In this document: positions 8,737-54,309 of the stretch, piece by piece
Position numbering within the stretch: the first letter of the stretch is position 1
How the letters are laid out: each line of letters opens with the position of its first letter
Assembly: GCA_030753015.1 (NCBI GenBank)
Contig: JASMDC010000001.1
Location: 1 to 64,000 of the forward strand
Length of the DNA: 64,000 nucleotides
Direction: 5' to 3'
Source: Candidatus Undinarchaeales archaeon
GTDB taxonomy: Archaea > SpSt-1190 > JASMDC01
Made by a program: the position numbers and the translations under genes
The notes under the pieces: model-generated
Told to the model about the DNA's origin: nothing
The model's input: the letters and a program-made list of their open reading frames with translations, nothing else
Database searches by the model: none

Positions 8737-11499
8737 ATGCCCAAGGGAGAGCCCCCCGAAGAGAAATCCCTGGTCTTCAGGGCGCCCGACCTCTATTATA
8801 TTTTTTCCTTCGACCTCATGGAGGTCGCCAAGAATCCTGCGGTCTCGGAGCTGGACCTCGACAGTCTAGGGATGAGGCTCCATGAACTTGATGTTCCTTT
8901 CTACTCGGTGAACATCCCCCAGGTCCGCCACGCTGTTTCCCTCATCGAGCGTGACCGTTCGTTCTCAGGCAAGGACTTCGCAGAATCGCTCTCCGTCATC
9001 CTAGGTACGAAGTTGACGTGGAGGGGGTTCGTGGAGCTGCGCGGGAAGACCAAGCTCCTCACCAGTTCGGACCTCAATATCATACTCCTCTACCTCCTGT
9101 GCAACAAGACTGCGGACCTTGAGCAGCTCATCGTCGAGACCGTTTCTAAGCTCACCGACGCTTTCACCATGTGTCACGGCCTGCTCTCATCCATCGAGGG
9201 TGACGAGCTCGACCTACGGAAGGACCACTCGCGCAGCAAGGACTATGTGCTGGGCGAGATGACCCGTCGGTACACGAATCTCGCTAAGTCCATGTGCTAC
9301 ATCCCGGACGGTACCGCCACCAAGGACGTCCTTGCCTCGCTGCAGAAGAAGGATTTCCACCTTGGGAACGCCCGGGAGCACGTCCGGCTGGTCGAGATGG
9401 CCGCCGAATCCCAGAATCCCAAGATGCTCCGGAAGGCCGTCGCCTACCTCAAGGCCCTCGAGTCGTTCGTGTTCGAGGCCTCAGTGCTCGTAGGACGGAT
9501 GGTGTCACTCTATCACCTCAACGTCCCCATCCCTGCGGTGGAGAACATGGAGCGCCTCAACACCGTGGAGAAGCTCGTGGAGCTCTATGCCAAGCGTATC
9601 ACCTACTTCCGCTCGATCGGTCGCGAAGGTCGCAAGCACGAGCAGGCGTTCACCGAAGAGTTCGCCACGAAGTACGTGCCCCTGCGCATCGTGCCCTCCT
9701 CCATGGAGCAGAACATAGTCCGCCTCTCCGAGGCCGAGCTCGAGCTCGTGAACGCCATCGGCGAGGTGTGCGCCCAGACCCGGCGCAAGACCGCGACCGT
9801 TACCGAGATCAACCAGTTCGTTGAGGGGAGCGAGTGGCGTGTGGCGGCGGCACTTGAGGGGCTGGCCTCGAAGAACATCATCACTCGCGTGCGCTCGAAG
9901 GGAAAGGATGCCTCGTACACCACGATCAAAGGATTCCAGTACGTATCCCGGCTCGAGGGTGAGGAGTACTGGGATGTGCTGCGCATCGGGAGCGACAAGG
10001 TCGAGGTGTTCAGTCCAGAGGTGCGCATATCCGACGCGGGGATCGTGAGCATCCGCCTGCGCGCCCGTCCCAGGACCAAGGACATGGACCTTGCCGACAT
10101 CTCACGGCTGGAATCGAAGCTCTCGGGACGGATGGTGCGAATAGCTACAGCGGTATGGCGGACGTTCGCCGTATGCTGGAACGACTGCTTCGAGCGTGAC
10201 GAGGAGGGAAGGATCCCCTTCGCCCTGGAATCGGGTATACGCATCGCAAAGACCGGCACCGTGTACCGGCGTGACGGCGACGCCTATCGTGAGGTCATCT
10301 ACCATCGCTTCGTGATCCGTCTATTCATGGACGAGCGCCTATTCCTGGACGCCGATCCCTACTCTGAAAAGAACAAGCAGGTGGTGGGACTGGCCCGCTC
10401 GGCCGCTACCGCCTGGCGTGACTACCGACCATCCTTCGTACAACGGGTCATCGAGAACGACATCTCCAACTCCACTTCAGAGCTCATACTCCTCACCGAG
10501 AAGGGGCTGCTGCTCAACATGCCGCTGGCGGCCGAGAGCGAGCAGTACCGCGGCTTCATGCAGGACCTCATCCTCACAGTGGAGCTCCTTGGGATGCGCG
10601 AGGTTATGCTGGCCCGCATCGACGCCGAGATCGATGCCCTTCTCCTTGAGCACCGCCTGGCGTTGAAGCGCAACAAGGGGGCTGAGGAGCTGGAGAAGCT
10701 GCGCTTGGCGTTCCTGGATATCGCCAAGACCAAGACGCGGTTGGTGGACGCCATCAAGCTTGACATGCATATCCAGTCCATGCTCCTTCACGACGTGCTG
10801 GACCGGACGATGAAGGAGTTCCGCATCGACGTCCTCCATACCTCGATCAAGGAGAAGCTCAACGACCTCGACGCCCTTGTCCAATCCTCCTATACCATGG
10901 AGATGCGGGAGCGGAACATCGAGCTGCAGGACCAGTTCATATCCATCTTCGACGAGATGCGTCTCATGCAGGGTACGCTGGAGATCCTGGAAATCTTCAT
11001 CATATTCGTCTACTTCGTCTACTTCGCCACGCACATCAGCGAGGCCGTGGAGAAGGTCGTGCACGAGCCGGCCCTCTCGTACGAACAGTTCAAGGCAGGG
11101 GCATTGTTCATTGGATACCTGCTCCCAGGATTGATCGGTGTCATCTTCGGTGTGGAGTACATCCGTCACGGCCGGGGAGGTGTCATCAAGAAGCATATCC
11201 GCAACATCATCGCCCGCAACGGCGGTGTCGTGTCCAAGGAGCGCCTCGTCAATCACCTTGTTGAGAACGTGGCCCACGAGAGTGAGCTCTACATAGGTGC
11301 GCTGGAAGTGGCCCTTCGACCCTTCGAACGGATAGGCCCGATCGGTCCACGGGTGCGCCGCCTGCGCCATGACATCTGCACCATCGGGCTCACGCAGGAG
11401 ATCGAGCACATCCTGGGCCACCCCGAGTCCTTCCTATTGGAGGAGCGTGATGGGGAGACTTGGGTACGACTGACACAGGACTACGGGCCTGAGGCGTAG
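8737..11499 (+). CDS. Large conserved-looking protein with winged-helix-like region and C-terminal membrane segments, unknown function
   Basis: A 920-residue protein I do not recognise. The N-terminal 330 residues are helical. About residues 340-410 look like a winged helix (LVNAIGEVCAQTRRKTATVTEI through ENIITRVRSKGK-like wing). Residues 430-560 appear beta-rich. About 610-750 form a coiled coil, ending at two hydrophobic segments (EILEIFIIFVYFVYFATHI and ALFIGYLLPGLIGVIFGVEYI), and the C-terminal 130 residues again look like a small helical/winged domain. The coiled coil followed by a short hairpin of membrane helices resembles in outline RMD1/DUF155 and CorA-type architectures, but I see no diagnostic motif for either. 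It starts immediately after the membrane coiled-coil gene. Confidence 0.8.
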   Translation: MPKGEPPEEKSLVFRAPDLYYIFSFDLMEVAKNPAVSELDLDSLGMRLHELDVPFYSVNIPQVRHAVSLIERDRSFSGKDFAESLSVILGTKLTWRGFVELRGKTKLLTSSDLNIILLYLLCNKTADLEQLIVETVSKLTDAFTMCHGLLSSIEGDELDLRKDHSRSKDYVLGEMTRRYTNLAKSMCYIPDGTATKDVLASLQKKDFHLGNAREHVRLVEMAAESQNPKMLRKAVAYLKALESFVFEASVLVGRMVSLYHLNVPIPAVENMERLNTVEKLVELYAKRITYFRSIGREGRKHEQAFTEEFATKYVPLRIVPSSMEQNIVRLSEAELELVNAIGEVCAQTRRKTATVTEINQFVEGSEWRVAAALEGLASKNIITRVRSKGKDASYTTIKGFQYVSRLEGEEYWDVLRIGSDKVEVFSPEVRISDAGIVSIRLRARPRTKDMDLADISRLESKLSGRMVRIATAVWRTFAVCWNDCFERDEEGRIPFALESGIRIAKTGTVYRRDGDAYREVIYHRFVIRLFMDERLFLDADPYSEKNKQVVGLARSAATAWRDYRPSFVQRVIENDISNSTSELILLTEKGLLLNMPLAAESEQYRGFMQDLILTVELLGMREVMLARIDAEIDALLLEHRLALKRNKGAEELEKLRLAFLDIAKTKTRLVDAIKLDMHIQSMLLHDVLDRTMKEFRIDVLHTSIKEKLNDLDALVQSSYTMEMRERNIELQDQFISIFDEMRLMQGTLEILEIFIIFVYFVYFATHISEAVEKVVHEPALSYEQFKAGALFIGYLLPGLIGVIFGVEYIRHGRGGVIKKHIRNIIARNGGVVSKERLVNHLVENVAHESELYIGALEVALRPFERIGPIGPRVRRLRHDICTIGLTQEIEHILGHPESFLLEERDGETWVRLTQDYGPEA

Positions 11500-12719
11500 G
11501 CCACCAAGCGTCCATCGAGACCCTGGAGCCTGCGTCGCGCTGACGTCATACGTGCGGTCCGCACGTCGAGGAGCCCTGCCAGGACCCGCGCATCCTGCGC
11601 CACGTCCTCGCCCGGCGACGAGCGACGGCTAACCCGGTCGTACAGAGGTGCCAGGTATTCTGGATCGATACCCAGCACATCAAGCCCTCCTGCGGCCTTC
11701 TCTAGTTCGTCGTCGACCACCTCCCACGCCGGCCGCAACCGGCCCTCGGGATCGTAGAGCTCACCGCTGAGCCCGTGACGCACAGCTTCCTCACGGTTGA
11801 GCTCCACCTGCCCGTGGTCGAGCAGCGCCGTCCCCCGGTAGTGCTCGATCAATCCCAGATAGAGAGCCACACATGCCAGCGACTCCTCTATTGTGGGCTG
11901 CTGGGGGATGGCCCGGAACTCGGTCCGCAGCGTTTGGTCCGCACCTACACGTATCCGGACCTCGTGCCAGTCTGTGGAAAGGCGACCGTCAAGTCCAGAG
12001 ACACCGGCCACGTCCTCCCACACTTCACGCTCGTCGAGGTAGTCGGCGAGGTCGTGGTAGTACCGCGGTAAGCCCGTGCGCCCCGGCAATCCCAGACAGT
12101 TCTCGATGAGGGGGAGCCTCGCCTCCGCTCTACCTGTATCACCCCCCATGAGCAGGCTGGAGTTGGCGGCTACTGCGACCACGTACGGGCTTAGCATGAC
12201 GGCATGATTGAGATCGTCCACGAGCTCGACCTCGTCACGTGCCTGGAGGTTGACGTGGATACCCGCGGTCAGCCCTTCCAGCTCCGTGCGATAACCTGCG
12301 AGCTCGTCGATGACCCGATCATATCTCCCGCTGCTCGTGACCTCGATGTCGTCGTACCACTTCACAGGGTGCGCTCCGAGCCCGAGCACCGCAGCGTCGG
12401 GCTCCGCGGAGAGGAAGCCTCCCACGCGGTCATAGAGCTGTCCGGCCATGGTATCGAACGCGTCCACGGGGTAGGGCTCCGTACGCACCTCGATGGTGTC
12501 CGTGTGCTGCTCGGTACCGTATCCCTCGTGGTCTCTGGCAAGGAAGGACGACACCGCTGTGGAGTAGGGCTGTAGATCCTTGTCGACGACCAGGAGCTCG
12601 TACTCGAGGCCTACACGTCGCTCCGACCTGCGGTACTGGTCGATGTGGGCGAGAAGATGTTCGGCCTCCTGTGCGAAATCCCTGTCCGTTAGTGTCCCTC
12701 CCGGGTCGTTACACGACAC
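11481..12719 (-). CDS. GCS2-type glutamate-cysteine ligase-like carboxylate-amine ligase
   Basis: A 412-residue protein of the GCS2 family (YbdK / archaeal GshA type), which joins an amino acid to the gamma-carboxylate of glutamate using ATP. Family features are RRVGLEYELLVVD (metal/ATP glutamates), TIEVRTEPYP, GIHVNLQ, and LRTEFRAIPQQPTIEE. In haloarchaea a relative makes gamma-glutamylcysteine, but the acceptor here is unknown. GTG at 12719 is chosen; a TTG at 12722 is adjacent and no other start lies upstream of the conserved region. The TATA at 12724-12735 is too close to serve this gene and belongs to the divergent regulator. The 3' end overlaps the 920-residue gene by 19 nt, convergently. 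Confidence 0.78.
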   Translation of the reverse strand: MSCNDPGGTLTDRDFAQEAEHLLAHIDQYRRSERRVGLEYELLVVDKDLQPYSTAVSSFLARDHEGYGTEQHTDTIEVRTEPYPVDAFDTMAGQLYDRVGGFLSAEPDAAVLGLGAHPVKWYDDIEVTSSGRYDRVIDELAGYRTELEGLTAGIHVNLQARDEVELVDDLNHAVMLSPYVVAVAANSSLLMGGDTGRAEARLPLIENCLGLPGRTGLPRYYHDLADYLDEREVWEDVAGVSGLDGRLSTDWHEVRIRVGADQTLRTEFRAIPQQPTIEESLACVALYLGLIEHYRGTALLDHGQVELNREEAVRHGLSGELYDPEGRLRPAWEVVDDELEKAAGGLDVLGIDPEYLAPLYDRVSRRSSPGEDVAQDARVLAGLLDVRTARMTSARRRLQGLDGRLVAYASGP

Positions 12720-12723
12720 CAAA

Positions 12724-13635: not shown

Positions 13636-14721
13636 TCACGCCCGGGGCAGGAAGGTGCGGTAGTAGCAGACCTCGTCGCGGCATGAGCCGCTGTAGCCCT
13701 CGCGGAACGTCTTTTGCGTGTGCGTGTAGAGCTCTTCGTCGCCGATGCTGTCGTCCGCAGCGAGACGGAGCAGATCAGCGATGAAGTGCACGTCCTGGAG
13801 CTTGCGACGTGTGTCATTCGAGCGCCCCGCGATCTTGACGGCCTTCACACCGGCGTTCATGAGCGTGCGCAGGACGCAGGCGCCGCAATCGATACCCGTC
13901 TTGGCATGGAAGTGCTTCTCCATCCGCGATCTGGCAGCCGCGATGCACTCCAGCGATACGGCGCCGACGGTCACAGGCTCGGTCCCGTAGTCGAGCAGAC
14001 AGGGTTCGGGCCTGAGCCCGGGAAGTCGTCGGGCCATGCGGAGCAGGCGTCGGGGCACGTGCCGGGCAGCCATAAGTGCCGCACGGCTGTGGAGGATGGT
14101 GCGCCCCAGGCCACCGCTTCGTGGGCCTTCAGCCTCCTGGAGCCCGTCCATGAAGGTGCAGAATCCGTCCACGTTCACGCAGCGGTCGTTGAGTACGAAC
14201 ACCTCAAGGTCCAGGGGCGGGTCCCGAGCCAGGTCGACGATCTCGTCAGGTGTGAGGTGCTGGGGTAGGATCGCGCGCTCGGCGCCCAGCCCTGCGAAGA
14301 ACGCAAGTGCAGCGCTATTGAACGCGGGAGAGATTGTGCTGACGTGGACCGAGATGTCCGGATGCTCGCGGCGGGCGCGGACCATGGTCGGTAGGTCCGA
14401 GATGAGGAAACCGTCGACCCCGGCGTCGACCGCATCGTCCATGAGCCGTGCCAGATGGTCAGCCTGGGCGGCGGTGTAGTAGGCGGGATTGAGCGTGAGG
14501 TGAACGGGCACCTTCAGCTCGTGCGCCCTATCAACGGCCTCGCGCAGCTCTTCGAGGTCCGAGAAGTTACCGACGACGCTGTCGCGGTCGTTGTTCGACA
14601 CGAACGTCGAGAATGAGTCCTTCCACCTCCGCGTCAGCATGCCCGCATAGAGCTCAGTGGCGCCCGCCTCCACCAGAGGCTCCACCTCCCGGACCGCGGT
14701 GAGGGGCGAGATGAGCTCCAC
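13636..14721 (-). CDS. Peptidase U32 family protein, paralogue A
   Basis: A 361-residue TIM-barrel protein of the U32 family. Despite the name, characterised relatives (UbiU/UbiV, RlhA, TrhP) carry out O2-independent hydroxylation and bind a [4Fe-4S] cluster. The start MELISPL and AGATELYAGML are typical. Seven cysteines follow a pattern shared with the other paralogues: C181/C188 (CVNVDGFC), C241, C279/C282 (DCGAC) and C347/C352 near the end (CRDEVCYY). The GTG start at 14721 lies 30 nt from the first T of TTTATC in the promoter at 14738-14754. It is convergent with the HTH regulator and divergent from paralogue B. Substrate unknown. Confidence 0.85.
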   Translation of the reverse strand: MELISPLTAVREVEPLVEAGATELYAGMLTRRWKDSFSTFVSNNDRDSVVGNFSDLEELREAVDRAHELKVPVHLTLNPAYYTAAQADHLARLMDDAVDAGVDGFLISDLPTMVRARREHPDISVHVSTISPAFNSAALAFFAGLGAERAILPQHLTPDEIVDLARDPPLDLEVFVLNDRCVNVDGFCTFMDGLQEAEGPRSGGLGRTILHSRAALMAARHVPRRLLRMARRLPGLRPEPCLLDYGTEPVTVGAVSLECIAAARSRMEKHFHAKTGIDCGACVLRTLMNAGVKAVKIAGRSNDTRRKLQDVHFIADLLRLAADDSIGDEELYTHTQKTFREGYSGSCRDEVCYYRTFLPRA

Positions 14722-14737
14722 GGGGCCGGGGGGTCGC

Positions 14738-14754
14738 CCAAGCTTGATAAAGGT
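14738..14754 (-). promoter_or_regulatory. U32-type promoter element (copy 1)
   Basis: On the minus strand this reads ACCTTTATCAAGCTTGG, a TATA-type box whose first T in TTTATC is 30 nt before the GTG of U32 paralogue A. The same 17 bases at the same distance precede paralogues D and E. Confidence 0.7.
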
Positions 14755-14783
14755 GTCGCAGCGGCCACGCCCTCGCGGACAAC

Positions 14784-14793
14784 GTTAAAAAGC
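14784..14793 (+). promoter_or_regulatory. TATA box of U32 paralogue B
   Basis: GTTAAAAAGC lies about 32 nt before the ATG at 14817. It differs from the 17-nt element of paralogues A, D and E, so B and its downstream partner may be regulated separately. Confidence 0.5.
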
Positions 14794-14816
14794 TCACCCG
14801 CCCATGAGTAGGCGGG

Positions 14817-15902
14817 ATGAAGGTCCTCTCCCCGGTCAACAACGTCAGCGAGATCGAGAAGGTGGTCTCTGCTGGAGCGGATGAAGTGTACTGCGGTGTG
14901 CTCACCCCTGCTTGGCAGGGGCGGTTTGCTCATACTGGTACCATCAACGGCAGCCCCTCGCGCTTCCACAACCTGGCCGACCTCGATGAGCTGCGCCATG
15001 TGGTGGAGGTTGCCCATGCCCACGATGCCAAGGTGTTCGCCACCTACAACTCGTACTACTACAGCCGCGATCAGTACCCTCTCCTGGAGAAGGAGGTCGA
15101 TGGTGCCGTGACGGCTGGCGTGGACGGGATCATCGCCGCCGACATAGGGCTCATGCGCACCATTGTCGCCATGGACACGGGGGTGGAGCTCCATGTCAGC
15201 GTTGTCGGAGGCGCGTTCAACTCTCGCACCGTGGCCTTCTACAGGGAGCTGGGGGCCTCGCGGGTCGTGCTGCCCAAACAGCTCACGTTGGAGGAGATCG
15301 GCTCTATCGCCGCAGACCGTGGTGACATGGTCCTTGAGTGCTTCATCCTGACCGTCGGCTGCAACAACGCAGAGGCCCTCTGTCGGTTCCAGCACGGGGT
15401 CATCGAGGCACGTCACCCGCGGCTGTCGAGGTTCGTCCTCAACAACCCCCTCCAGAGCAGCATCATCAAGGCGTACCAACGCAAGGGCGCTGGACGGATG
15501 CGGCGGTTCCTACAAGAGCATACCTTCCTCGCGGACCGTGCCGCCTGCTGCCTGCGCTACGATCTTGAGCCGATGGAGGCGATGGAGGAGAATGAGCTCG
15601 CTCGCGTCAGGTCCTGCCTGACACCCCTGCTCTCCAACGCCTTCGAGCACGAGCGGATGTACGGGTGTGGTGTGTGCGCGCTCCCGGTACTTGCGCGCAT
15701 GGGCATCTCGACGGTCAAGACCGAGGACCGGGCAGCACCGCTCGGCGACCGGCTCAACAACATCGCATTCGTCAAGGAGATGCTGAAGGAGCTGGAGCGA
15801 ACGACTAACGACGACGCCTTCTGCTCCCGCGCCCGGGAGCGGTTCGGCACTCTCCGCGGGTTCGCTTGTGACGACGACTACTGCAACCATCTGGTGGGCT
15901 GA
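14817..15902 (+). CDS. Peptidase U32 family protein, paralogue B (divergent)
   Basis: A 361-residue U32 barrel, clearly more diverged than A, C, D and E but with the same cysteine scaffold: C182/C189 (CNNAEALC), C244/C245, C284/C287 (CGVC) and C351/C356 (CDDDYC). It starts MKVLSPVNNV and keeps AGADEVYCGVLTP, matching the paralogues' first strand. It has lost their NVDGFCTF motif and the HFxGKTGxDCGAC context, so the substrate is probably different. The next gene starts one base after the stop, suggesting an obligate partner in the manner of UbiU with UbiV. Confidence 0.82.
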   Translation: MKVLSPVNNVSEIEKVVSAGADEVYCGVLTPAWQGRFAHTGTINGSPSRFHNLADLDELRHVVEVAHAHDAKVFATYNSYYYSRDQYPLLEKEVDGAVTAGVDGIIAADIGLMRTIVAMDTGVELHVSVVGGAFNSRTVAFYRELGASRVVLPKQLTLEEIGSIAADRGDMVLECFILTVGCNNAEALCRFQHGVIEARHPRLSRFVLNNPLQSSIIKAYQRKGAGRMRRFLQEHTFLADRAACCLRYDLEPMEAMEENELARVRSCLTPLLSNAFEHERMYGCGVCALPVLARMGISTVKTEDRAAPLGDRLNNIAFVKEMLKELERTTNDDAFCSRARERFGTLRGFACDDDYCNHLVG

Positions 15903-15903
15903 C

Positions 15904-16698
15904 ATGGAGAACGCCCTATATGTGACCAAGGAACGGGACCTGGATAAGTGGGAGGACCGGTACACTCGACTCCACTTCGGTCAGGAGTTCTGCCAGCGTC
16001 TACTCCCGGACCTCACCGAGCTGGACACAGCGATTAGGTTCGCCCAGGACCGGGATGCTGACCTTACCCTCGTCACCCCCTTCGTCACCGACATGGCGCT
16101 CGAGCGGGTGGCAGGGCTGATGGGGCGACTGCACGACCGGCTGCCGGGGACCGAGGTGGTCGTCAACGACCTGGGAGTCCTGACGCTCATACGCGAGCGC
16201 GGATGGGACCTGCAACCCGTGCTCGGACGTTTGCTGACGAAACAGAAGCGCGGGCCCCGGGTCACTCTGCTCGAGGAGCGCATTCCACCGGCCGCCCTCC
16301 ACCATTATCGCCGCTCTAATGCCAGCTCATCTGCCTTCCAGACGTTCCTTCAAGAGCATGGAGTGCGCCGTGTGGAACTGGACAACCTCCTTCAGGGCAT
16401 CGATGACGACCTGACGGGATCCGGGCTGTCAGGCTCGCTCCACTACCCGTATGCCTACGTCACGACGAGCCGATGCTGCCCGGTGGCCTTGTGCGGTGGG
16501 AGCGGCCTGCGGCCGAGCCTTGCCCCGTGTGGGAAAGAGTGCCTGCGGTACGGACCCTTCCGCCTCCTCACGCGGCATATGCCCGTACCGCTCGTGCTCG
16601 CGGGCACGACGCAGTTCTACCGCAACGACCACCTCCCCGATGATCTAGAGGCGCGGGGCATCGACCGGGTGGTCCATGCACCGGTACCGCCCGTCTAA
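15904..16698 (+). CDS. Small U32/UbiV-like cysteine-rich partner protein
   Basis: A 264-residue protein that looks like a shortened U32-type barrel: VVVNDLGVLTLIRE, then PVLGRLLTKQKRGPR, then HGVRRVELDN recall the order in UbiV-like proteins (a strand ending DxG, then a GxxLN-like loop, then the next strand). A cysteine group follows: C191, C192 and C197 (CCPVALC), C209 and C213, a plausible Fe-S ligand set. The ATG at 15904 is one base after the stop of paralogue B and is chosen over the upstream frame because that would lie inside B. The family link is inferred from motif order and context, not from an alignment. Confidence 0.65.
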   Translation: MENALYVTKERDLDKWEDRYTRLHFGQEFCQRLLPDLTELDTAIRFAQDRDADLTLVTPFVTDMALERVAGLMGRLHDRLPGTEVVVNDLGVLTLIRERGWDLQPVLGRLLTKQKRGPRVTLLEERIPPAALHHYRRSNASSSAFQTFLQEHGVRRVELDNLLQGIDDDLTGSGLSGSLHYPYAYVTTSRCCPVALCGGSGLRPSLAPCGKECLRYGPFRLLTRHMPVPLVLAGTTQFYRNDHLPDDLEARGIDRVVHAPVPPV

Positions 16699-16712
16699 GA
16701 GCTGCGGACTGG

Positions 16713-16730
16713 GAAGCTTTTTGAAGCTTC
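16713..16730 (+). promoter_or_regulatory. TATA element inside a perfect inverted repeat
   Basis: GAAGCTTTTTGAAGCTTC is an inverted repeat, GAAGCTT and AAGCTTC around TTTG. It lies 20-37 nt before the ATG at 16750, so the T-run could be the TATA region and the arms a protein-binding site. Confidence 0.45.
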
Positions 16731-16749
16731 AGCACACCTTCTTCGCTCA

Positions 16750-18513
16750 ATGCCGTCTCCCCTGGCGCTCCCATTCGCACTGGCGAACCTCCTGCTCATC
16801 GCCAGTGCGCTGGTGGCGTCACGACGGGAGCTGGGGGCGCTCCTACCGCACTCCCGTGACAGGCGAAGAGCGCTGTTGCTCGTGCTCCTCGTCGCTTTCA
16901 GCGTACGCGTTCTCAATCCCTACCGTCCGGTGCCTTTCGAGGACGAATGGTTCTACATAGACCAGTCCCATGCCCTGGTCCGTCACCGTCTCAACGTGTT
17001 CTGCACCCTTGGCGACATGGACGACTGCGGACGGTTCGGCGTTTTCTATCCAATAGGCTATCCTGTGGTCCTCTCGCTAGCGTCCTCGATCCTTGGGTTC
17101 AACGACATCGCAGCGCGTGCAGTAGGGATCGGAGGGGGCATCGCGACCGTGCTGATCACCTATCTGCTGGTGCGTCTTCTGACCCGTGATGATCGGACGG
17201 CGCTCGTGGCATCGCTGGTACTTGCCCTCCTTCCCATGCATATACGATACGCTATGACGACGTCCTCTGAGATGGTCTCCATGCTGACAGAGGCCCTGGC
17301 GGTTCTGGGAGCGGTCCTCCATGTCAGGACGGGGCGGTCGGCTAACGCCTGGCTCGCCGCAACGTCGCTTGCGTTCCACATGACCGTTCGGCGAGAGAAC
17401 CCACTGGCGATCATCCCGCTCCTGGCCGTTTACAGCGGGGGCGGGAGAGCTCGAAGGTCCGCCCTCCCCTGGATCATGGCCCTGGTGCTGATCGTGCCGC
17501 ATATAAGTGGATTCGGTGAGCTCAACATGGGCGCGACCTTCCATCTGAGCCCCACCCAGGCCGAGGACAGCGTGGTCCCCCTCCACCCCAAGCACATACC
17601 GCGCAACCTCTGGTACGTCCGGTACTGGCTCGATGGGTACTTCGTCCCCTTCCTCTTCACTGCCCTTGCCCTCATGGGGGCCGCGGCCATTCAGAAGCTT
17701 CCCTCACCGTACTCCCGTCTCGTCGTCTCATGGTGGATTGTCCGAATGGGCGTGTACCTTCTCAACCACTTCCGGTCGTTCACTCCTCGTTTCATGCTCA
17801 GCCTCTCGGTTCCGTTCGCCCTGGCCGCCGGTGCCGGTGCACACGCGTTATCGCCTGCGGCCTCCTTCGTCGTTGGGGCCGTATTGCTGTCGGGTGCAGC
17901 GCACCTGCCCTTCCCATACAGTGAACGCTTCGGGCTCGAACTGGCCGAGGGGGTCCGCTCGGCGATGGCAGCGGCCCACCTCCTCCTTCCACTTGCACTG
18001 CTGCTCTGGGCGGCGTGGCGGTCACGATCCCGGGAACCGCGTGCCCTGGTCGCTGTGGCGGTGGCCTGCCTGTTCCTTGTCCCGCTCCTCTACACCGTGG
18101 TGGAGTCGACCGACGGTGTGCACTACGCTCAACGTGAAGCGTTCACACTGGAGGAGCGTACGATCGATGGCTGGCGTCATCTGGTCGGTTCGGACTGTCA
18201 CGTCGTCGTCGTCGAACCCGTACGCCCGCGATACCTGTGGCGGCGACCAACGATCGTCGCCAACTTCAACTTCCTGTCCACCAAAGCCGTCCGGGACATC
18301 CTGAAGACGGACCTGGATCCGTTGCTCCGTGACGGAGAATGCGTATACTTCTATGATCCAAGGCCGAATGGTCGGACCAGACCCCTCCTCCACGAGGACT
18401 ATGTGCTCGAACTGTTGGACCGCATCGATGTCGATAAGGTAGCTCCCGATGCCACGGCACTCCTCGAGGAGATATCCCTCTACCGGGTGACGGGTCGGCG
18501 TCCATCCCCGTAG
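16750..18513 (+). CDS. Multi-spanning membrane glycosyltransferase-like protein (GT39/PMT-like)
   Basis: A 587-residue protein with about ten to twelve membrane helices in the first 440 residues and a soluble C-terminal domain of about 130. The first luminal loop carries FEDEWFYIDQSHAL, the acidic motif of lipid-linked-sugar-dependent GT-C enzymes (PMT, ArnT, AglB-like groups). A predicted role is transfer of a sugar from a polyprenyl carrier to a protein or lipid outside the membrane. The start is supported by the promoter at 16713-16730. The 3' end overlaps U32 paralogue C by 34 nt on the opposite strand. The substrate is unknown. Confidence 0.72.
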   Translation: MPSPLALPFALANLLLIASALVASRRELGALLPHSRDRRRALLLVLLVAFSVRVLNPYRPVPFEDEWFYIDQSHALVRHRLNVFCTLGDMDDCGRFGVFYPIGYPVVLSLASSILGFNDIAARAVGIGGGIATVLITYLLVRLLTRDDRTALVASLVLALLPMHIRYAMTTSSEMVSMLTEALAVLGAVLHVRTGRSANAWLAATSLAFHMTVRRENPLAIIPLLAVYSGGGRARRSALPWIMALVLIVPHISGFGELNMGATFHLSPTQAEDSVVPLHPKHIPRNLWYVRYWLDGYFVPFLFTALALMGAAAIQKLPSPYSRLVVSWWIVRMGVYLLNHFRSFTPRFMLSLSVPFALAAGAGAHALSPAASFVVGAVLLSGAAHLPFPYSERFGLELAEGVRSAMAAAHLLLPLALLLWAAWRSRSREPRALVAVAVACLFLVPLLYTVVESTDGVHYAQREAFTLEERTIDGWRHLVGSDCHVVVVEPVRPRYLWRRPTIVANFNFLSTKAVRDILKTDLDPLLRDGECVYFYDPRPNGRTRPLLHEDYVLELLDRIDVDKVAPDATALLEEISLYRVTGRRPSP

Positions 18514-19595
18514 GTTGTGGGCAGGAACTTCCGGTAGTAGCACGAGATGTCCGTGCAGGTGCCGGAGTACTGCTCGCGGAAGTCGCTCCGCGTACGCGTG
18601 CACAGCTCCTCGTCCGTAATGGTGTCATCCTGCGCAGCCTCGAGCAGGTGTGCGAGGAACCGGACGTCGATGAGCTTGCGTGTCAGGTCGTTCGTCCTGC
18701 CGTCGATCTTCACCGCTCTAACACCAGCACGCAGAAGGGTGCGGAGGACACAGGCCCCGCAGTCGATCCCGGTCTTCCCCTTGAAGTGGGATGACATTCG
18801 CTCCCGGGCAGCGGCCAATCCCTCGATGGACGCCCCTCTCACCAAGAGCGGCTCTGTTGTATACTCGAGCGTGCACGGGGGGGGGCGGAACATAGAGCTC
18901 CGCCGTACTTGCTGGAGCACGGTTCTGGGGAGGAGCCGGGCGGCCGTTAGCGCCCACCTGCTGTGGAGGAGGGCGTGACCGAGGCCAGTGTCGTGGGTAC
19001 GTGTGGCCTCCTCGACGCCATGTGTGAATGTGCAGAACCCGTCGACGTTCAGGCACCGGTTGTTGAGCACGAACACCTCGATGTCCAGAGGTGCGTCCTG
19101 TGCCAATGCTGTGATCTCGTCAGGCGTGAGCTGCTGGGGGAGCACGATGCGGGACGCTCCCAGTTCCGCGTAGAATCCCAGCGTCGAGCGGTTGAAGCAG
19201 GGGGCGAGGGTGCTCACGTGGACGGTGGTGTCCGGGTGCTCCTGGCGGGCGCGGAGCATGGTGGGCACATCGGCGATGATGAAACCGTCGATGCCCATGT
19301 CGGCCCCAGCATCCAAGACCTTTCCCACCAGCTCGCGCTGGGCTTGAGTGTAGTAGGCTGTGTTGACGGTGAGGTGGACGGTCGCTTTCCGTTCGTGGGC
19401 CCTCTCGACAGCGTTGGACAGGTCCTCCAAGGATAGGAAGTTGCCCCAAGTGGTGTGCTGCTGGTTGCCCGAAACGAGGGTCGTGTACGTACGCCTCCAT
19501 TCGGGAGTGAGCACGCCTGCATAGAACTCGGTGGCCCCTGCGTCCACAAGCGGGTCCACCTCGTCGGCGCGTGTGAGGGGGGAAAGGATCTCCAT
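18480..19595 (-). CDS. Peptidase U32 family protein, paralogue C
   Basis: A 371-residue U32 barrel of the same subgroup as A, D and E. It starts MEILSPLTRADEV, has AGATEFYAGVLTPEW, and carries the shared cysteines in CLNVDGFC, PPPC, DCGAC and CTDISCYY. It is about ten residues longer than its paralogues at the C-terminus, where it runs into the convergent GT39-like gene. It follows paralogue D by 12 nt and has an AGGA sequence just upstream of the ATG, so D and C form a two-gene operon and may make a heterodimer. Confidence 0.85.
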   Translation of the reverse strand: MEILSPLTRADEVDPLVDAGATEFYAGVLTPEWRRTYTTLVSGNQQHTTWGNFLSLEDLSNAVERAHERKATVHLTVNTAYYTQAQRELVGKVLDAGADMGIDGFIIADVPTMLRARQEHPDTTVHVSTLAPCFNRSTLGFYAELGASRIVLPQQLTPDEITALAQDAPLDIEVFVLNNRCLNVDGFCTFTHGVEEATRTHDTGLGHALLHSRWALTAARLLPRTVLQQVRRSSMFRPPPCTLEYTTEPLLVRGASIEGLAAARERMSSHFKGKTGIDCGACVLRTLLRAGVRAVKIDGRTNDLTRKLIDVRFLAHLLEAAQDDTITDEELCTRTRSDFREQYSGTCTDISCYYRKFLPTTYGDGRRPVTR

Positions 19596-19607
19596 GATAA
19601 TCCTCCC

Positions 19608-20690
19608 TTACCTGGGGACGAACTCACGGTAGTAGCAGGAGCGGTCGACGCATACGCCACTGTACTCCTCCTGGAACCGCTCCCGCGTGCGCCGGCAGAG
19701 CTCGGCATCGGTGATGCCGTCATCGCGTGCGAGCTCGAGCAGGGCCGCAAGGTAGCGCACGTCCTTGATCTTGCGCGTCGTGTCGTTGGTCCTACCATCG
19801 ATCTTGATAGCCTTAACACCGGCGTTCAGAAGAGTTCGCAGTGAGCAGGCACCGCAGTCGACACTCGTCTTCGGTCTCATGTTGGCCGAGACGTGTGCCC
19901 GAGACGCAGCCACGCTCTCTAGCGCCAATCCACCAACCGCCACCACGTCGATGTCGTAGGCCAGCATGCACGGGGGAGGGATGAGGCCGGGGAGCTTGCG
20001 GGCCAGTCCGAGCAGGCCGGCGGGCGCATGTCGCGCAAGGGCGATCGCCCAGTGGCTGTGACGGAGGGCACGCCCGAAGCGGCCAACACGGGATGCCGTG
20101 GCCTCGTGCACACCATGGGTGAATGTGCAGAACCCGTCGACGTTCGGGCATGGATTGTTCAGCACGAACACCTCGATATCGAGCGGTGTGTCCTTTGCGA
20201 GGCCGGTCACCTCCTCCAGGGCCACGTGCCGGGGGAGCACCGCTCGAGCGGCCCCAATATCGGTATAGAACTGCAGGGTCGACCGGTTGAAGCTGGGAGC
20301 GATGGTGCTCACGTGGACGGCTATGTCCGGGTACTCCTGGCGGCACCGGAGCATGGTGGGGAGGTCGGCGATGAGGAACCCGTCGATGCCCAGTCCTGCG
20401 GCGGAGTCCATGAGCCGGCCGACACGCTCGTGCTGACGGGAAGTGTAGAACGAGAGGTTGAGAGTAAGGTGGACGGGCACCTTCCGCTCATGGGCACGGC
20501 CCACGGCCTCCTCGAGCTCCTTGAGCGTGGGGAAGTTACTGATTGTAGTTTCCCGGCGGTTACTGGCGACCAGCGTTGAGAACGCCTTTTTCCACTCAGG
20601 TGTGAGCACGCCGGCGAAGAGCTCTGTGGCGCCGGCGTCGATGAGCGGATCGACCTCGTGTACGCGGCTGAGCGGAGAGAGCAGCTCCAC
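19608..20690 (-). CDS. Peptidase U32 family protein, paralogue D
   Basis: A 360-residue U32 barrel, MELLSPLSRVHEV at the start, with the shared motifs AGATELFAGVLTPEW, CPNVDGFC, DCGACSLRTL and CVDRSCYY. The GTG at 20690 is 30 nt from the first T of the TTTATC in the 17-nt promoter element at 20707-20723. It is the first gene of the D-C operon and is divergent from the HhH-GPD glycosylase gene. As for the other paralogues, anaerobic hydroxylation is the family-based prediction and the substrate is unknown. Confidence 0.85.
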   Translation of the reverse strand: MELLSPLSRVHEVDPLIDAGATELFAGVLTPEWKKAFSTLVASNRRETTISNFPTLKELEEAVGRAHERKVPVHLTLNLSFYTSRQHERVGRLMDSAAGLGIDGFLIADLPTMLRCRQEYPDIAVHVSTIAPSFNRSTLQFYTDIGAARAVLPRHVALEEVTGLAKDTPLDIEVFVLNNPCPNVDGFCTFTHGVHEATASRVGRFGRALRHSHWAIALARHAPAGLLGLARKLPGLIPPPCMLAYDIDVVAVGGLALESVAASRAHVSANMRPKTSVDCGACSLRTLLNAGVKAIKIDGRTNDTTRKIKDVRYLAALLELARDDGITDAELCRRTRERFQEEYSGVCVDRSCYYREFVPR

Positions 20691-20741: not shown

Positions 20742-21428
20742 GTGGCAGGTCCTGACCTAGATCTGGCGCACCTGGTCCCCGAGGTCTACGAGCGACTGTT
20801 CGCGCGATTCGGCCCGCAGTACTGGTGGCCTGGGGATACGCCCTTCGAGGTCGTTGTCGGGGCGCTGCTCACCCAGAACACCGCCTGGACGAACGTGGAA
20901 CGGGCCATCGCTGCCCTGTCGCAGGCCGGTGCTCTTTCTCCCGAGGGCATTCGCGAGTTGCCCGAGACGGAACTGGCGGCCCTGATACGGTCGGCCGGAT
21001 ACTTCAATCAGAAGGCCCGACGTCTCAAAGGTCTGGTGGCGTTCATCTATAGTGCGGGAGGACTGGACGCCCTATTCTCCCGGCCCATCTCCCGGCTGCG
21101 TGAAGATCTGCTGGGTGTCACGGGAGTGGGCCCCGAGACGGCCGATTCCATCCTCCTCTACGCAGCGGGGATGCCGTCGTTCGTCATCGATGCCTATACA
21201 CGCCGCGTCTGCTCGCGGCTGGGGCTCTGCCCGTCTGACGTCACCTACGATGATCTACAGGCCCTGTTCGCCACCCACCTGCCTATAGACGTCCGACTCT
21301 ACAACGAGTACCACGCCCTCTTCGTTGCCTTGGGCAAGGACGTGTGCCGGCCCCGGTCGCCACGGTGCAGCGAGTGCCCGCTGGCGGACCTCTGCGCTCA
21401 CGCGCACAAGGTCATCGAAGGAGCCTGA
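20742..21428 (+). CDS. HhH-GPD DNA glycosylase, endonuclease III-related, with [4Fe-4S] cluster
   Basis: A 228-residue base-excision repair glycosylase. The helix-hairpin-helix LLGVTGVGPETADSILLYA and the catalytic aspartate in FVIDAYTRR are present. The C-terminal cysteines follow C-x6-C-x2-C-x5-C (CRPRSPRCSECPLADLC), the cluster loop of the Nth/MutY group. The lysine of bifunctional EndoIII (GVGRKTA) is replaced by GVGPETA, so it is more likely a monofunctional glycosylase of the thermophilic mismatch/uracil type. The start is a GTG at 20742, placed about 29 nt after the TATA element; the longer frame from 20658 would begin upstream of the promoter. Confidence 0.82.
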   Translation: MAGPDLDLAHLVPEVYERLFARFGPQYWWPGDTPFEVVVGALLTQNTAWTNVERAIAALSQAGALSPEGIRELPETELAALIRSAGYFNQKARRLKGLVAFIYSAGGLDALFSRPISRLREDLLGVTGVGPETADSILLYAAGMPSFVIDAYTRRVCSRLGLCPSDVTYDDLQALFATHLPIDVRLYNEYHALFVALGKDVCRPRSPRCSECPLADLCAHAHKVIEGA

Positions 21429-22392
21429 GGCTGTTCGTAACGACCCCCGGGTCCAGCGAGAACAGAAGGTTTAGCTCCAGATTGGCGTAGGTCCAGCACC
21501 CTGGGCACGATGGGGATTCAAGGGCCGCGAACGCTCTCTCGATCCCCGCGGTCCGGGCGTCGGGTGCAGGCCCACCTACCATGTTGAAGCATGGGTACAA
21601 CCGTCCGTCGGTGTAGATATGAGCGTAGAGGATTCCTGCCCAGCAGTACACGTCCTTCGGATGCTCTGGCCAGTGCATGAGATGCTCCAGGCCTTCCATC
21701 GAGTTACCGATCAGCCCCTCGGAGCGCTTTACCATCATGAGGTAGGTGAGGACCTCCTGCAGGCGCTCCGCGTCAGGAAGGAGCTTCTTCGCACCGGGCC
21801 CGCAGATATCGTAGTCCACGACGGGCTGGACGTACACCTTCAGGTCGTAGTGACGAGCGATGTCCAGCACGTGGTCCACGTGCTCGACGCTCTCATTGGT
21901 GAGCACCGTAGTGAGCCAGACTGTCATGCCCTCGGTCCGCGCTGCGGCGATGGCCTCCATGACCATGTCGTGGGCCCCGGGCTCCCTGACGGCGTCGTGC
22001 ACCTCCGCAGGTCCGTCGAGGGAGAGCTGGAGCAGGTCGAGCGAGGCGATGTCCTTGAGCCTGCGCGTCACCAGCGCGCCGTTGGAAACGAGCCCGGTGA
22101 AGATGCCGTTGTCCTGACATCGTCGGACGATGTCCCCGATGTCGCTTCGCACCAGTGGCTCGCCGCCGGTGAGGCCGATCCGCTGGCATCCCAGTCTGGC
22201 CAGTCCGTCGACGATGCTGTACACCTCGTCGAGGGACATCTCGTCGGCCGGCGTCCCCGGCACGTCGCAGTAGGAGCAGGCGTAGTTGCACCTGTTCGTG
22301 ACATGGAAGGATACGGACAGCGGCGTACGCCGCCCCGTCAGGTGGGCAAGCGCTACCGCCCGGGCAGCCGCGAGCTTGTTCCGAAGTCTCAC
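21412..22392 (-). CDS. Radical SAM protein (SPASM-like), paralogue 1
   Basis: A 326-residue radical SAM enzyme. The cluster motif is CNYACSYC in FHVTNRCNYACSYCDVPG near the N-terminus, followed by GLTGGEPLVRSD. The C-terminal part has single cysteines in DVYCWAG, YPCFNMVGG and CPGCW, compatible with an auxiliary cluster or a SPASM-like domain. The start is set at the GTG at 22392, 27 nt from the first T of TTTATC at 22414-22419; the longer frame to 22434 would begin upstream of the promoter. It overlaps the glycosylase gene by 17 nt convergently and is divergent from the next radical SAM gene. The substrate is unknown. Confidence 0.8.
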   Translation of the reverse strand: MRLRNKLAAARAVALAHLTGRRTPLSVSFHVTNRCNYACSYCDVPGTPADEMSLDEVYSIVDGLARLGCQRIGLTGGEPLVRSDIGDIVRRCQDNGIFTGLVSNGALVTRRLKDIASLDLLQLSLDGPAEVHDAVREPGAHDMVMEAIAAARTEGMTVWLTTVLTNESVEHVDHVLDIARHYDLKVYVQPVVDYDICGPGAKKLLPDAERLQEVLTYLMMVKRSEGLIGNSMEGLEHLMHWPEHPKDVYCWAGILYAHIYTDGRLYPCFNMVGGPAPDARTAGIERAFAALESPSCPGCWTYANLELNLLFSLDPGVVTNSLRLLR

Positions 22393-22410
22393 ACGGACAT
22401 TTCCGTGGGA

Positions 22411-22421
22411 GAAGATAAATC
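22411..22421. promoter_or_regulatory. Bidirectional TATA element between two radical SAM genes
   Basis: GAAGATAAATC. The minus strand gives TTTATC 27 nt before the GTG at 22392. The plus strand gives GATAAAT about 28 nt before the ATG at 22444. Both messages would be leaderless. Confidence 0.6.
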
Positions 22422-22443
22422 CTTTGCCCCTCACAACGCCACC

Positions 22444-23382
22444 ATGGTCCGGCGCCTGGACCTCAAAGTTGGCTATTCCTGCAACAATAACTGCCGGTTC
22501 TGCGTCGTTGCCCGCCGGCGAGCCAATCCTGACCGTGGTATCGACACGCTCGTCGCCGCGCTGGAGCGCGCACGGCCCGAGGCCACCGAGGTGGTCATCA
22601 CGGGCGGGGAGCCGTCAGTGCGCTCTGACCTCGTGGAGCTGGTAGCAGCAGCCCATCGACTTGGCTACGGTCGCATCCAGCTCCAGACCAATGGACGGAT
22701 GGTGAGCTATCGCGGCCTGGCGGACGACCTGGCCCGGGCCGGGCTCACCGAGGCGGTAGTAGCTCTCCACGGCGCCACTTCCGGGACGCACGACGGTCTG
22801 GTCCGGTCATCGGGCGCCTTCGACCAGACCCGGAGAGGGCTCGACAACCTCGTCGCAACAGGGGTGCAGGTGATCGTCAAGACCGTGGTCGTACGGCCCA
22901 ATCTCAGGGAGCTTGTGGACATCGCACGTATCGCTGTCGACAGTGGCGCCCGTGGGTACCAGGCCGCCTTCGTACATGCTGAAGGCAACGCTCGGGAGGA
23001 GTTCGACCAGGTGGTCCCCCGGATGAAGGCCGCAGTCCCACCCATTATCGAGGCTCTCGACCTCGCCGCGTCCCGGGGGCTGGACGCACACGTGGAGGCC
23101 GTGCCCCTCTGCCTATTGCCTGGAAGGGAACCCCTGGCCTCGGAGCTCTACATGCCGCCCACCGAGGTGGACAGCCCCGAGGGTCTCGACACCGATTTCG
23201 ACACGACCCGCGTTACAGAGGGAAAGTCCAAGGGCCCCCGGTGCTCCCGGTGTCGGTTCGTCGGTGTCTGCGAGGGCGTGTGGCACGAGTATCCGGAACG
23301 GTTCGGATGGGATGAGTTCGTCCCGGTCCCTGGGAACCCGGTGCGCTCGATGGCCGACCTGGCCCGGGCCCACCTCAGATGA
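22444..23382 (+). CDS. Radical SAM protein, paralogue 2
   Basis: A 312-residue radical SAM enzyme starting MVRRLDLKVGYSCNNNCRFC, with C-x3-C-x2-C and VITGGEPSVRSDL. The C-terminal region has CSRCRFVGVC, four cysteine-spaced residues that could bind an auxiliary cluster, then GVWHEYPERFGWDEF. It is similar in layout to the next gene (shared LQTNGRM, CNNxC and a C-terminal CxxC-x5-C), so the two are paralogues. The ATG at 22444 is 28 nt after the TATA element; the frame stays open far upstream only as an antisense shadow of the previous gene. The substrate is unknown. Confidence 0.8.
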   Translation: MVRRLDLKVGYSCNNNCRFCVVARRRANPDRGIDTLVAALERARPEATEVVITGGEPSVRSDLVELVAAAHRLGYGRIQLQTNGRMVSYRGLADDLARAGLTEAVVALHGATSGTHDGLVRSSGAFDQTRRGLDNLVATGVQVIVKTVVVRPNLRELVDIARIAVDSGARGYQAAFVHAEGNAREEFDQVVPRMKAAVPPIIEALDLAASRGLDAHVEAVPLCLLPGREPLASELYMPPTEVDSPEGLDTDFDTTRVTEGKSKGPRCSRCRFVGVCEGVWHEYPERFGWDEFVPVPGNPVRSMADLARAHLR

Positions 23383-24235
23383 CAGAGGTCACAGGCTCGA
23401 GCTCATCATCGCCCCAACGGTCCAAGTAGGTCAACCATAGACCGGGGCAGCGCTCGGTGATAGTGCAATGATCACAGGGGGTACCGTGACCCCGACGCTC
23501 CCAGACCGGTAGCGCACCATCCTCGCCCTCCCGCCACTCGATGGCATTGCGGAGGTGGATGGGCGATGTACAGAGAGGGAAGCCCTCGATGGTGGCGAAC
23601 CGCTCTGCCTCTAGCACTACGTTCATGGCCTTACGAAGTGGGGCTCGGATATCACTGAGCCTGGGCACGACCTCGTCCATGGCGAGATAGGCCCTTCCTG
23701 TCGGTTCGGGGAAGGCCACCTGCACCTGCGAGACGTCCCGCTTCACAAGGTCCCGGGCGATAGCGGGGAGATGTGGGACCACTGCCTTCGTAGCGACCAC
23801 ATTGGCGGCCACGAACCCGCCCAACCGTCTGATGTTCCGGATCGCTGCCATGGTCTGGCGGTGGGAGCCACGGACCTTCGTTTGCCCCTCATGGAGCTGC
23901 GCAGTGTGGCCAGAGACGGTGACGATGAACTCGGTGATGCCCGCATCGATGAGCTGGGCTGTATAGTCGGCGTAATTGAGCATACGACCGTTGGTCTGAA
24001 GCTGCATGATCGTATACCCGAGCTTCCGTGCCTCGCGCACGATCTCGAAGAGGTCGTCGCGGCAGGTGGGTTCGCCACCGGTGAGCACGAGCTCGTCCGC
24101 ACCGTCGTCCGCCGCTATCCTGAGCAGGCAGCGGACCTGATCCAGAGGGAGTTCATCGTACACGTTGGTACCGGCGCAGCAGAACGTGCATTGATTATTG
24201 CACCGCCACCCGAGACCCAGCGAGTACCGCGTCAC
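23375..24235 (-). CDS. Radical SAM protein, paralogue 3
   Basis: A 286-residue radical SAM enzyme with CNNQCTFC, VLTGGEPTCRDDL and LQTNGRMLNYADY, closely resembling paralogue 2. The C-terminus has CDHCTITERC followed by PGLWLTYLDRWG, again similar. A GTG at 24235, preceded by GAGGGGG, is chosen because the longer frame would run deep into asd. It follows asd by 10 nt, so it is probably co-transcribed with it, and overlaps paralogue 2 by 8 nt convergently. Cysteine-bearing radical SAM enzymes of this size often modify peptides, RNA or cofactors; no target can be assigned. Confidence 0.8.
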   Translation of the reverse strand: MTRYSLGLGWRCNNQCTFCCAGTNVYDELPLDQVRCLLRIAADDGADELVLTGGEPTCRDDLFEIVREARKLGYTIMQLQTNGRMLNYADYTAQLIDAGITEFIVTVSGHTAQLHEGQTKVRGSHRQTMAAIRNIRRLGGFVAANVVATKAVVPHLPAIARDLVKRDVSQVQVAFPEPTGRAYLAMDEVVPRLSDIRAPLRKAMNVVLEAERFATIEGFPLCTSPIHLRNAIEWREGEDGALPVWERRGHGTPCDHCTITERCPGLWLTYLDRWGDDELEPVTSVI

Positions 24236-24245
24236 AACGGCCCCC

Positions 24246-48016: not shown

Positions 48017-48035
48017 GCTCCCGTTCACCCCGCGT

Positions 48036-48052
48036 ACCTTTATCAAGCTTGG
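48036..48052. promoter_or_regulatory. U32-type promoter element (copy 3), shared by queD and U32 paralogue E
   Basis: The plus strand reads ACCTTTATCAAGCTTGG, identical to the elements of U32 paralogues A and D, with the first T of TTTATC 30 nt before the GTG of paralogue E at 48069. The minus strand reads TTGATAAAGG about 31 nt before the queD ATG. Confidence 0.65.
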
Positions 48053-48068
48053 CGTCGCTCCTTTGGAC

Positions 48069-49154
48069 GTGGAGGTCCTCTCCCCACTAACCCGCGCCTT
48101 CGAGGTGGAGCCCCTGGTGGACGCCGGGGCCACGGCCTTCTATGCAGGAGTGCTCACAGCCGACTGGCGCCGGGCCTTCTCCACACTTGTGGCGGGCAAC
48201 CAAGAGCCTGCAGTGGGGGCGAACTTCCCCTCGTTGGAGGAGCTCAAGGAAGCCGTGGAGCGCGCTCACGACCGTAAGGCGCCGGTGACCCTCACCCTCA
48301 ACCTCGACTACTACACCGACCGCCAGCGCGAGCACTTGGGCAAGTTGATGGACTCTGCTGCGGACGCGGGCGTGGACGGTTTCCTCATCGCCGACGTGCC
48401 AACCATGGTCCGTGCCCGGGCCGAACATCCTGACGTGCGCCTTCACGTTAGCACCATCGCTCCCGCGTTCAACAATGCTGCTCTGGAGTTCTACGCGGAC
48501 CTGGGCGCCAGCCGCGTGGTGCTCCCCCAGCAGCTCACTCCCGAGGAGATCGTGGCACTGGCACGCGACACTCCCGTGGAGCTGGAGGTGTTCGTGCTCA
48601 ACAACCGGTGCGTGAACGTCGACGGCTTCTGCACCTTCGTGGACGGCATGGACGAAGCGGTCAGGCCGCTCACGGGGCGTATCGGTTTCGGCCTCCTCAA
48701 CAGCCGATGGGCGCTGCAGGCGGCCCGGTTCGTCCCCAGGCGTGCGCTGCGACACATGCGTCGGCTCCCCGGCCTCCGGCCTGCACCATGCCTGCTCGAC
48801 TACAAGGTGTCGCCTGTGACCGTCGGCAACCTCCCTCTGGAGGGGATGGCCGCGGCCAGGCAGCGGATGGAGGGTCACTTCGGTGGCAAGACCGGTGTCG
48901 ACTGCGGTGCCTGTGTCCTCCGCACGCTCCTCAGGGCAGGTATCACTGCGGTCAAGATCGATGGACGGCCCAACGATATGGCGCGCAAGCTCCGGGACGT
49001 GCGCTTCATCACCGACATGCTCAAGGCCGCGAAGGATGACACTGTCCCGGACAATGCACTATACTCTCGCACACGCCGTACCTTCAACCAGGGGTACAGC
49101 GGGGAATGCACCGACCTCACCTGTTACTACCGTGACTTCCTTCCCGGGCAGTGA
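48069..49154 (+). CDS. Peptidase U32 family protein, paralogue E
   Basis: A 361-residue U32 barrel of the A/C/D subgroup with AGATAFYAGVLTADW, CVNVDGFC, GVDCGACVLRTL and CTDLTCYYRDFLP, and the same cysteine spacing. It is 30 kb from the other members. The start is the GTG at 48069, where the protein begins VEVLSPLTRAFEV like its paralogues (MEILSPL and so on). The frame from 47955 would begin upstream of the promoter. It is divergent from queD, so an RNA-hydroxylation role such as that of TrhP/RlhA is a reasonable guess. Confidence 0.87.
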   Translation: MEVLSPLTRAFEVEPLVDAGATAFYAGVLTADWRRAFSTLVAGNQEPAVGANFPSLEELKEAVERAHDRKAPVTLTLNLDYYTDRQREHLGKLMDSAADAGVDGFLIADVPTMVRARAEHPDVRLHVSTIAPAFNNAALEFYADLGASRVVLPQQLTPEEIVALARDTPVELEVFVLNNRCVNVDGFCTFVDGMDEAVRPLTGRIGFGLLNSRWALQAARFVPRRALRHMRRLPGLRPAPCLLDYKVSPVTVGNLPLEGMAAARQRMEGHFGGKTGVDCGACVLRTLLRAGITAVKIDGRPNDMARKLRDVRFITDMLKAAKDDTVPDNALYSRTRRTFNQGYSGECTDLTCYYRDFLPGQ

Positions 49155-54220: not shown

Positions 54221-54309
54221 CTCATGCCCTCCCGGGGCCAGCACCCGAGGCCTGCATAGGATTGGATGGGCTGTGAAGATTTAAAAAGAGGGCGGCGGGG
54301 CGGTAGCTC

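Follow-up and report, generated by a model that had tools for sequence, protein, structure and literature searches.

Among the closest known relatives of the proteins considered here are UbiU and UbiV of O2-independent ubiquinone biosynthesis, which form a heterodimer with two clusters (PMC6747719). A published survey of the U32 family lists four-cysteine motifs only, and the UbiV ligands C39, C180, C193 and C197 follow the motif CXnCX12CX3C (PMC6747719). Prephenate has been shown to supply the oxygen for UbiUV, and the same is implied for the RNA-modifying U32 enzymes (PMC11574389). TrhP (YegQ) and RlhA, two further U32 proteins, use the arrangement C-x6-C-x15-C-x3-C. We analyzed a stretch of 64,000 nucleotides (the window; contig JASMDC010000001.1, or C29 in our numbering) from the 3.85 Mb genome of a Candidatus Undinarchaeales archaeon. 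It encodes five U32 proteins, here called paralogues A to E, that share seven cysteines. These seven-cysteine proteins are a distinct clade of the U32 family with its own cysteine code, and B is encoded next to a UbiV-like partner.

A U32 clade with its own cysteine code

Paralogues A to E all match the Pfam family Peptidase_U32 (PF01136), with 84–106 bits against a cut-off of 22.4. A function as peptidases, for which the family name is the sole support, was dropped. Paralogue A (361 amino acids; 13636..14721, minus strand) was characterized by its Pfam match, a cysteine alignment and a structure model, and the other four by Pfam, alignment and tree. A, C (18480..19595, minus strand), D (19608..20690, minus strand) and E (48069..49154, plus strand; nearest to A) are solo proteins, lacking a partner gene. 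B (14817..15902, plus strand) is of the paired type and represents the UbiU-like subunit. The pattern common to the five is C-x6-C, C, C-x2-C and C-x4-C, or C181, C188, C241, C279, C282, C347 and C352 in the numbering of A. All seven are invariant across A to E, so the five reading frames and their shared cysteines stand as originally described. Identity to A is 57–65% for C, D and E but only 32% for B, which is therefore a different, older paralogue. In a maximum-likelihood tree, A, C, D and E form one partnerless subclade (100/100) on a long stem.

Scanning reference genomes, we identified 40 related loci, which belong to Bacillota, Acidobacteriota, beta-, gamma- and deltaproteobacteria and one Bathyarchaeote. 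Nearly all complete members from these loci carry the same seven cysteines, and the seven are kept in a 40-sequence alignment in which identity to A is 26–37% outside the close paralogues. Given that the cysteines are invariant down to this level, the pattern is not a product of chance. What had been noticed as a feature of A to E is thus family-wide and not peculiar to this genome.

We aligned 65 clade members jointly with 11 UbiU, TrhP and RlhA sequences. C181, C188, C241, C279, C282 and C352 are present in 65/65 members. C347 occupies the exact column in only 33/65, because many members have x5 spacing, not x4. An eighth, less strict cysteine, C26, occurs in 50/65 members; B keeps it, and it is lost in A, C, D and E. 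C181, C188 and C241 correspond to the UbiU ligands C169, C176 and C193. However, the fourth UbiU ligand, C232, is found in 0/65 members, which mostly have tryptophan there, and the fourth TrhP ligand, C197, is likewise found in 0/65. The four other conserved cysteines are new: C279 and C282 belong to a CGxC motif that precedes the last barrel strand, and C347/C352 make up a C-terminal pair with x4 or x5 spacing. In the original prediction, the count was four UbiU-type ligands and two additional C-terminal cysteines. As the fourth ligand is missing from all 65 members, this count has to be replaced by three shared and four new cysteines.

The maximum-likelihood tree splits the 65 sequences from UbiU, TrhP and RlhA of E. 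coli at 100/100. In profile–profile comparison, the clade matches UbiU (99.9%, E 6.7e-36), which is also its best NCBIfam match (NF047963). The scores are 88.9–108.5 bits for the window proteins and 83 bits for the member from locus L038, far under the UbiU cut-off of 440, and the UbiU motif CX6CX16CX38C is incomplete for lack of its last cysteine. With TrhP and RlhA, the clade has in common the U32 domain and the core residues HxS, N, R..LPR and K-I-x-GR; the conserved residues of the U32 core are S128, N135, R149, K296 and R300. Against the TrhP model (NF011996, PRK15452), the window proteins score 55–63 bits versus 534, and they lack CX6CX15CX3C, including its C-x3-C fourth ligand. Unlike TrhP and RlhA, the clade has the CGxC motif and usually a partner subunit, and it does not group with RlhA in the tree. 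The tree and the UbiU scores put these proteins outside every known U32 family with a defined substrate, in line with the original prediction.

A UbiV-like partner and the number of pairs

A gene at 15904..16698 (plus strand) starts 1 nt past the stop of B. It encodes a protein with no Pfam or NCBIfam match, the UbiV model (NF047965, cut-off 275 bits) included. On the basis of alignment, profile comparison and a fold search, we class this partner as UbiV-like and not as UbiV. Its cysteines C30, C192, C209 and C213 are invariant in 21 sequences and include a terminal C-x3-C. They reproduce the UbiV layout C...C-x12/16-C-x3-C, with x16 instead of x12 in the window protein. A profile–profile comparison aligns the partner with UbiV over the full length with the four ligand cysteines in register, albeit weakly (E 0.22); in a plain hmmsearch, the partner profile had no match to UbiV. 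The partner matches the U32 profile at E 5.5e-6. Its AlphaFold2 (AF2) model has a mean predicted local distance difference test score (pLDDT) of 89, and in the PDB, only the U32 structure 5D88 matches its fold at E ≤ 0.001.

The partner adjoins a U32 gene in 34 of 39 related loci and in all four other archaeal members examined. A natural fusion of the UbiU-like and UbiV-like parts occurs at locus L054 (Eggerthellales). Solo clade members that are unrelated to A, C, D and E are common in Desulfobacterota.

A Pfam search of the archaeal genome found seven more U32 genes on other contigs. Six encode seven-cysteine proteins (contigs C32, C62, C42, C26 and, twice, C37), and one, on contig C56, encodes a double-domain RlhA/TrhP-like protein. 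The genome total is therefore 11 seven-cysteine proteins and one ordinary RlhA/TrhP-like U32 protein. Searching the genome with the partner revealed seven partner open reading frames (ORFs), each adjoining a U32 gene: that of B and six on the five other contigs. With seven pairs among the 11 U32 genes, A, C, D and E are left as four partnerless copies. Distances among the seven U32 proteins co-vary with those among their partners (Mantel r 0.84, p 0.004), much of the effect being due to one close pair of pairs. An adjoining UbiV-like subunit makes several heterodimers, plus the four partnerless copies, the likely working units. The idea of parallel single-enzyme hydroxylations, which had been proposed when the partner gene was unnoticed, is recast to this extent.

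The expansion is real and larger than had been noted. With the family profile that we used, true members exceed ~190 bits, and ordinary U32 proteins stay under 135 bits. We found clade members in 3 of 393 further archaea that were sampled, in 2 of 398 genomes from the phylum of the Bathyarchaeote and in 28 of 297 genomes of one deltaproteobacterial phylum, with one or two copies each; these surveys scored only 5–7 candidates per genome, so that higher counts could have been cut short, as they are for this genome. The nearest relatives of the same class have no seven-cysteine U32 protein. Within what was searched, 11 copies in one genome are exceptional. All copies of this genome need just one or two origins in the tree. 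Contamination was dropped as an explanation, given that these copies cluster, and so was a tandem-duplication artefact, given that A, C, D and E have diverged and are spread over 35 kb.

Only seven partner genes serve 11 U32 genes, which could mean that A, C, D and E are alternative subunits sharing the seven partners, or degenerate copies, and not enzymes in their own right. Their loss of C26 and their position as one clade on a long stem would fit this explanation. However, they retain the full set of seven cysteines as well as the conserved core residues, and the unrelated solo members of Desulfobacterota suggest that a solo form is able to work. We regard shared or degenerate subunits as unlikely.

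The pair in bacterial qhp operons

In 17 of 39 related loci, the U32/partner pair occurs together with QhpC, the gamma subunit of quinohemoprotein amine dehydrogenase (QHNDH), and other qhp genes. QH_gamma, QH_beta and a QhpD-type radical S-adenosylmethionine (SAM) maturase were confirmed in these operons by NCBIfam. A tryptophan in QhpC needs two oxygen atoms to become tryptophylquinone, and these are added by QhpG, a flavin adenine dinucleotide (FAD) monooxygenase that uses O2 (PMC7876137). On a Cupriavidus plasmid, the gene order is QhpF-QhpE-QhpG. In betaproteobacteria that have the pair, it is QhpF-QhpE-partner-U32, so that the pair is found in the same slot. No QhpG is nearby in any of the 17 loci, and none of the seven whole genomes with the pair and a qhp operon has a QhpG-like match at E 1e-5, a search in which two positive-control plasmids did match. 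The pair is unrelated to QhpG in sequence and belongs to an enzyme class that is independent of O2. Given the shared slot and the missing QhpG, the simplest reading of these gene arrangements is that, in the bacterial relatives as distinct from this archaeon, the pair takes the place of QhpG in the maturation of QHNDH.

A class-wide QhpC survey of whether the pair and QhpG exclude each other gave 2 of 369 genomes only, too few to inform; one of these operons has neither. In a search for plasmid qhp operons, there were no clade members among the best 30 of 212 matched plasmid records, only UbiU- or TrhP-type matches. We found no open-access paper that links U32 proteins with QHNDH.

Some other loci have different surroundings. 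The fusion at L054 (944-7551) lies beside radical SAM/SPASM and B12-radical SAM genes and a 157-amino-acid peptide rich in C-x-C motifs, and the locus looks like an undescribed cluster for a ribosomally synthesized and post-translationally modified peptide. In Desulfotruncus (L027, 4126-4944, minus strand), the pair divergently adjoins a gene for 3-deoxy-D-arabino-heptulosonate 7-phosphate (DAHP) synthase, the first step toward prephenate. In two small archaeal genomes (L075 and L076), it divergently adjoins a HemN/HemW-like radical SAM gene.

Gene neighborhoods in the archaeon

A PMT_2 membrane glycosyltransferase-like gene (16750..18513, plus strand; PF13231, 3.1e-7) lies 51 nt downstream of the partner of B. 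With gaps of 1 and 51 nt, B, the partner and this gene form a putative operon. On contig C37, two PMT_2 genes, a radical SAM gene and a gene for a further large membrane protein lie downstream of a U32-partner pair and are co-directional with it; on contig C32, a membrane protein gene comes after the pair. PMT_2 genes are within 7.5 kb of four of six independent pair loci versus 13% of the genome (p 0.004, post hoc). The genome has 42 PMT_2-like matches (E ≤ 0.01) in its 3.85 Mb; class-level relatives have 0.6–1.1 Mb.

The remaining pairs are near other genes: those for a DegT aminotransferase, an acyltransferase and B12-radical SAM proteins on contig C62, sugar-type enzymes on C26, and a flavin reductase and chorismate synthase on C42. 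The genome also encodes chorismate mutase, so prephenate can be made.

Further genes of the window lie around the solo paralogues. Three radical SAM genes are beside paralogue D: 21412-22434 (minus strand), which resembles a PTO1314-like family; 22300-23382 (plus strand), which is similar to HxsC4-type peptide maturases (160 bits; cut-off 500); and 23375-24352 (minus strand). A homologue of 6-pyruvoyl tetrahydropterin synthase/QueD (47582-48112, minus strand; PF01242, 2.5e-25) is divergent from paralogue E and overlaps its 5′ side. Upstream of the U32 cluster, 11481-12722 (minus strand) encodes a member of glutamate-cysteine ligase family 2 (GCS2, 1.7e-15). Near the right end of the window, an LPG_synthase_TM flippase-like gene (53282-54244, minus strand) and a complete carbamoyltransferase gene (55244-56914, minus strand) suggest a lipid or natural-product group.

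Predicted structure and possible metal sites

The AF2 model of A is a confident U32 triosephosphate isomerase (TIM) barrel, in which pLDDT is close to or below 60 for the C188 loop, the C241 loop and the C-terminal tail. Its top PDB fold match is 5D88 (Mk0906; Z 17.1, 2.9 Å over 189 residues), and several unrelated barrels score nearly as high. Mk0906 is the best fold match for both subunits, although the match covers the barrel only. Sequence searches of the PDB gave 5D88 as the only match, a weak one (E 0.004), and none for the partner. At E ≤ 0.001, a search of viral folds gave nothing, and neither the sequence nor the fold searches brought up a solved structure of a cluster-loaded U32 hydroxylase. 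The fold, the Pfam matches and the profile similarities uphold the original assignment to the U32 fold and its kinship to O2-independent hydroxylases.

As judged from the order of strands and helices in the model, and not from distances, C181, C279/C282 and C347/C352 would all be at the C-terminal face of the barrel. In barrel enzymes of this kind, the active site is at this face. A second metal site in the clade is possible. Two arrangements could fit the conserved cysteines: one of the new cysteines might serve as the fourth cluster ligand, or the cluster might have three ligands and an open iron, with a separate four-cysteine site besides.

Proposed function and alternatives

Taken as a whole, the clade resembles UbiU-UbiV in having two adjoining U32-fold subunits, three of four UbiU ligands and a partner with the UbiV-like layout. 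Like UbiU, B and six other copies have a UbiV-type partner encoded alongside, whereas A, C, D and E do not. We infer the catalysis, oxygen donor, cluster ligands and substrates of the clade from these likenesses and from gene context. The usual working unit would be a heterodimer of a UbiU-like subunit (such as B) and a UbiV-like subunit (such as 15904-16698), each probably holding one [4Fe-4S] cluster. This heterodimer would insert a hydroxyl group without O2, with the oxygen probably coming from prephenate. Its acceptors would be large or bound molecules, as opposed to free quinone precursors. In many bacteria, the pair would stand in for QhpG, which dihydroxylates a peptidyl tryptophan on the way to cysteine tryptophylquinone. 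In this archaeon, the system would have been duplicated to seven pairs and four partnerless copies, and could hydroxylate precursors (peptides, lipids or sugars) of a surface glycoconjugate. Since several pairs are in apparent operons with PMT/GT-C glycosyltransferase and radical SAM genes, glycoconjugate precursors are likely substrates of the archaeal pairs, and RNA and quinones are less likely ones. On balance, we favor the view that the clade consists of Fe-S hydroxylases of two subunits that probably depend on prephenate and whose substrates are large or bound, and that these enzymes multiplied in this archaeon.

Several observations weigh against this proposal. The neighbors of the archaeal pairs vary and include no obvious peptide substrate. 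The sequence similarity of the partner to UbiV is below significance. One acidobacterial genome has a weak QhpG-like ORF (98 bits), and one qhp operon has neither the pair nor, locally, QhpG. Finally, A, C, D and E lack a partner and may therefore work differently.

A bolder version of the proposal is tentative. It holds that a previously undescribed two-subunit U32 class makes tryptophylquinone without O2 in bacteria and radiated here to at least seven pairs and four solo proteins with several substrates. The class would have a three-cysteine cluster, whose open iron would be available to the substrate or the oxygen donor, and C279, C282, C347 and C352 would form a separate metal site.

The paralogues might instead be RNA hydroxylases that modify different tRNA or rRNA positions in the manner of TrhP and RlhA, to which they have clear profile similarity (E 2.1e-28 and 1.1e-22, respectively). 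This seems improbable because the clade is separate at 100/100, lacks the fourth TrhP ligand and, in bacteria, is often found in qhp operons, and because the genome already holds an RlhA/TrhP-like protein on contig C56. Also, no UbiV-type partner is known for TrhP or RlhA.

Even less probable is that the pairs are an archaeal UbiU/UbiV making a hydroxylated respiratory quinone: the two-subunit design and the best NCBIfam match point this way, but the scores (83–108 bits) are far from the UbiU cut-off, neither UbiT nor any other quinone gene was noticed close to a pair, a single pathway would hardly call for as many as seven pairs, and many bacterial relatives are tied to QHNDH.

If the pairs are hydroxylases of large or bound substrates, the replacement of QhpG by the pair would make an in vitro test of their chemistry practical, since the substrate, QhpC, is gene-encoded and known, and the readout is a mass shift of +32 Da. 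A clade that kept three cluster ligands, lost the fourth and gained four cysteines is a natural experiment on cluster function. For the archaeon, the expansion suggests that anaerobic hydroxylation is unusually extensive, with surface glycoconjugates as its probable targets.

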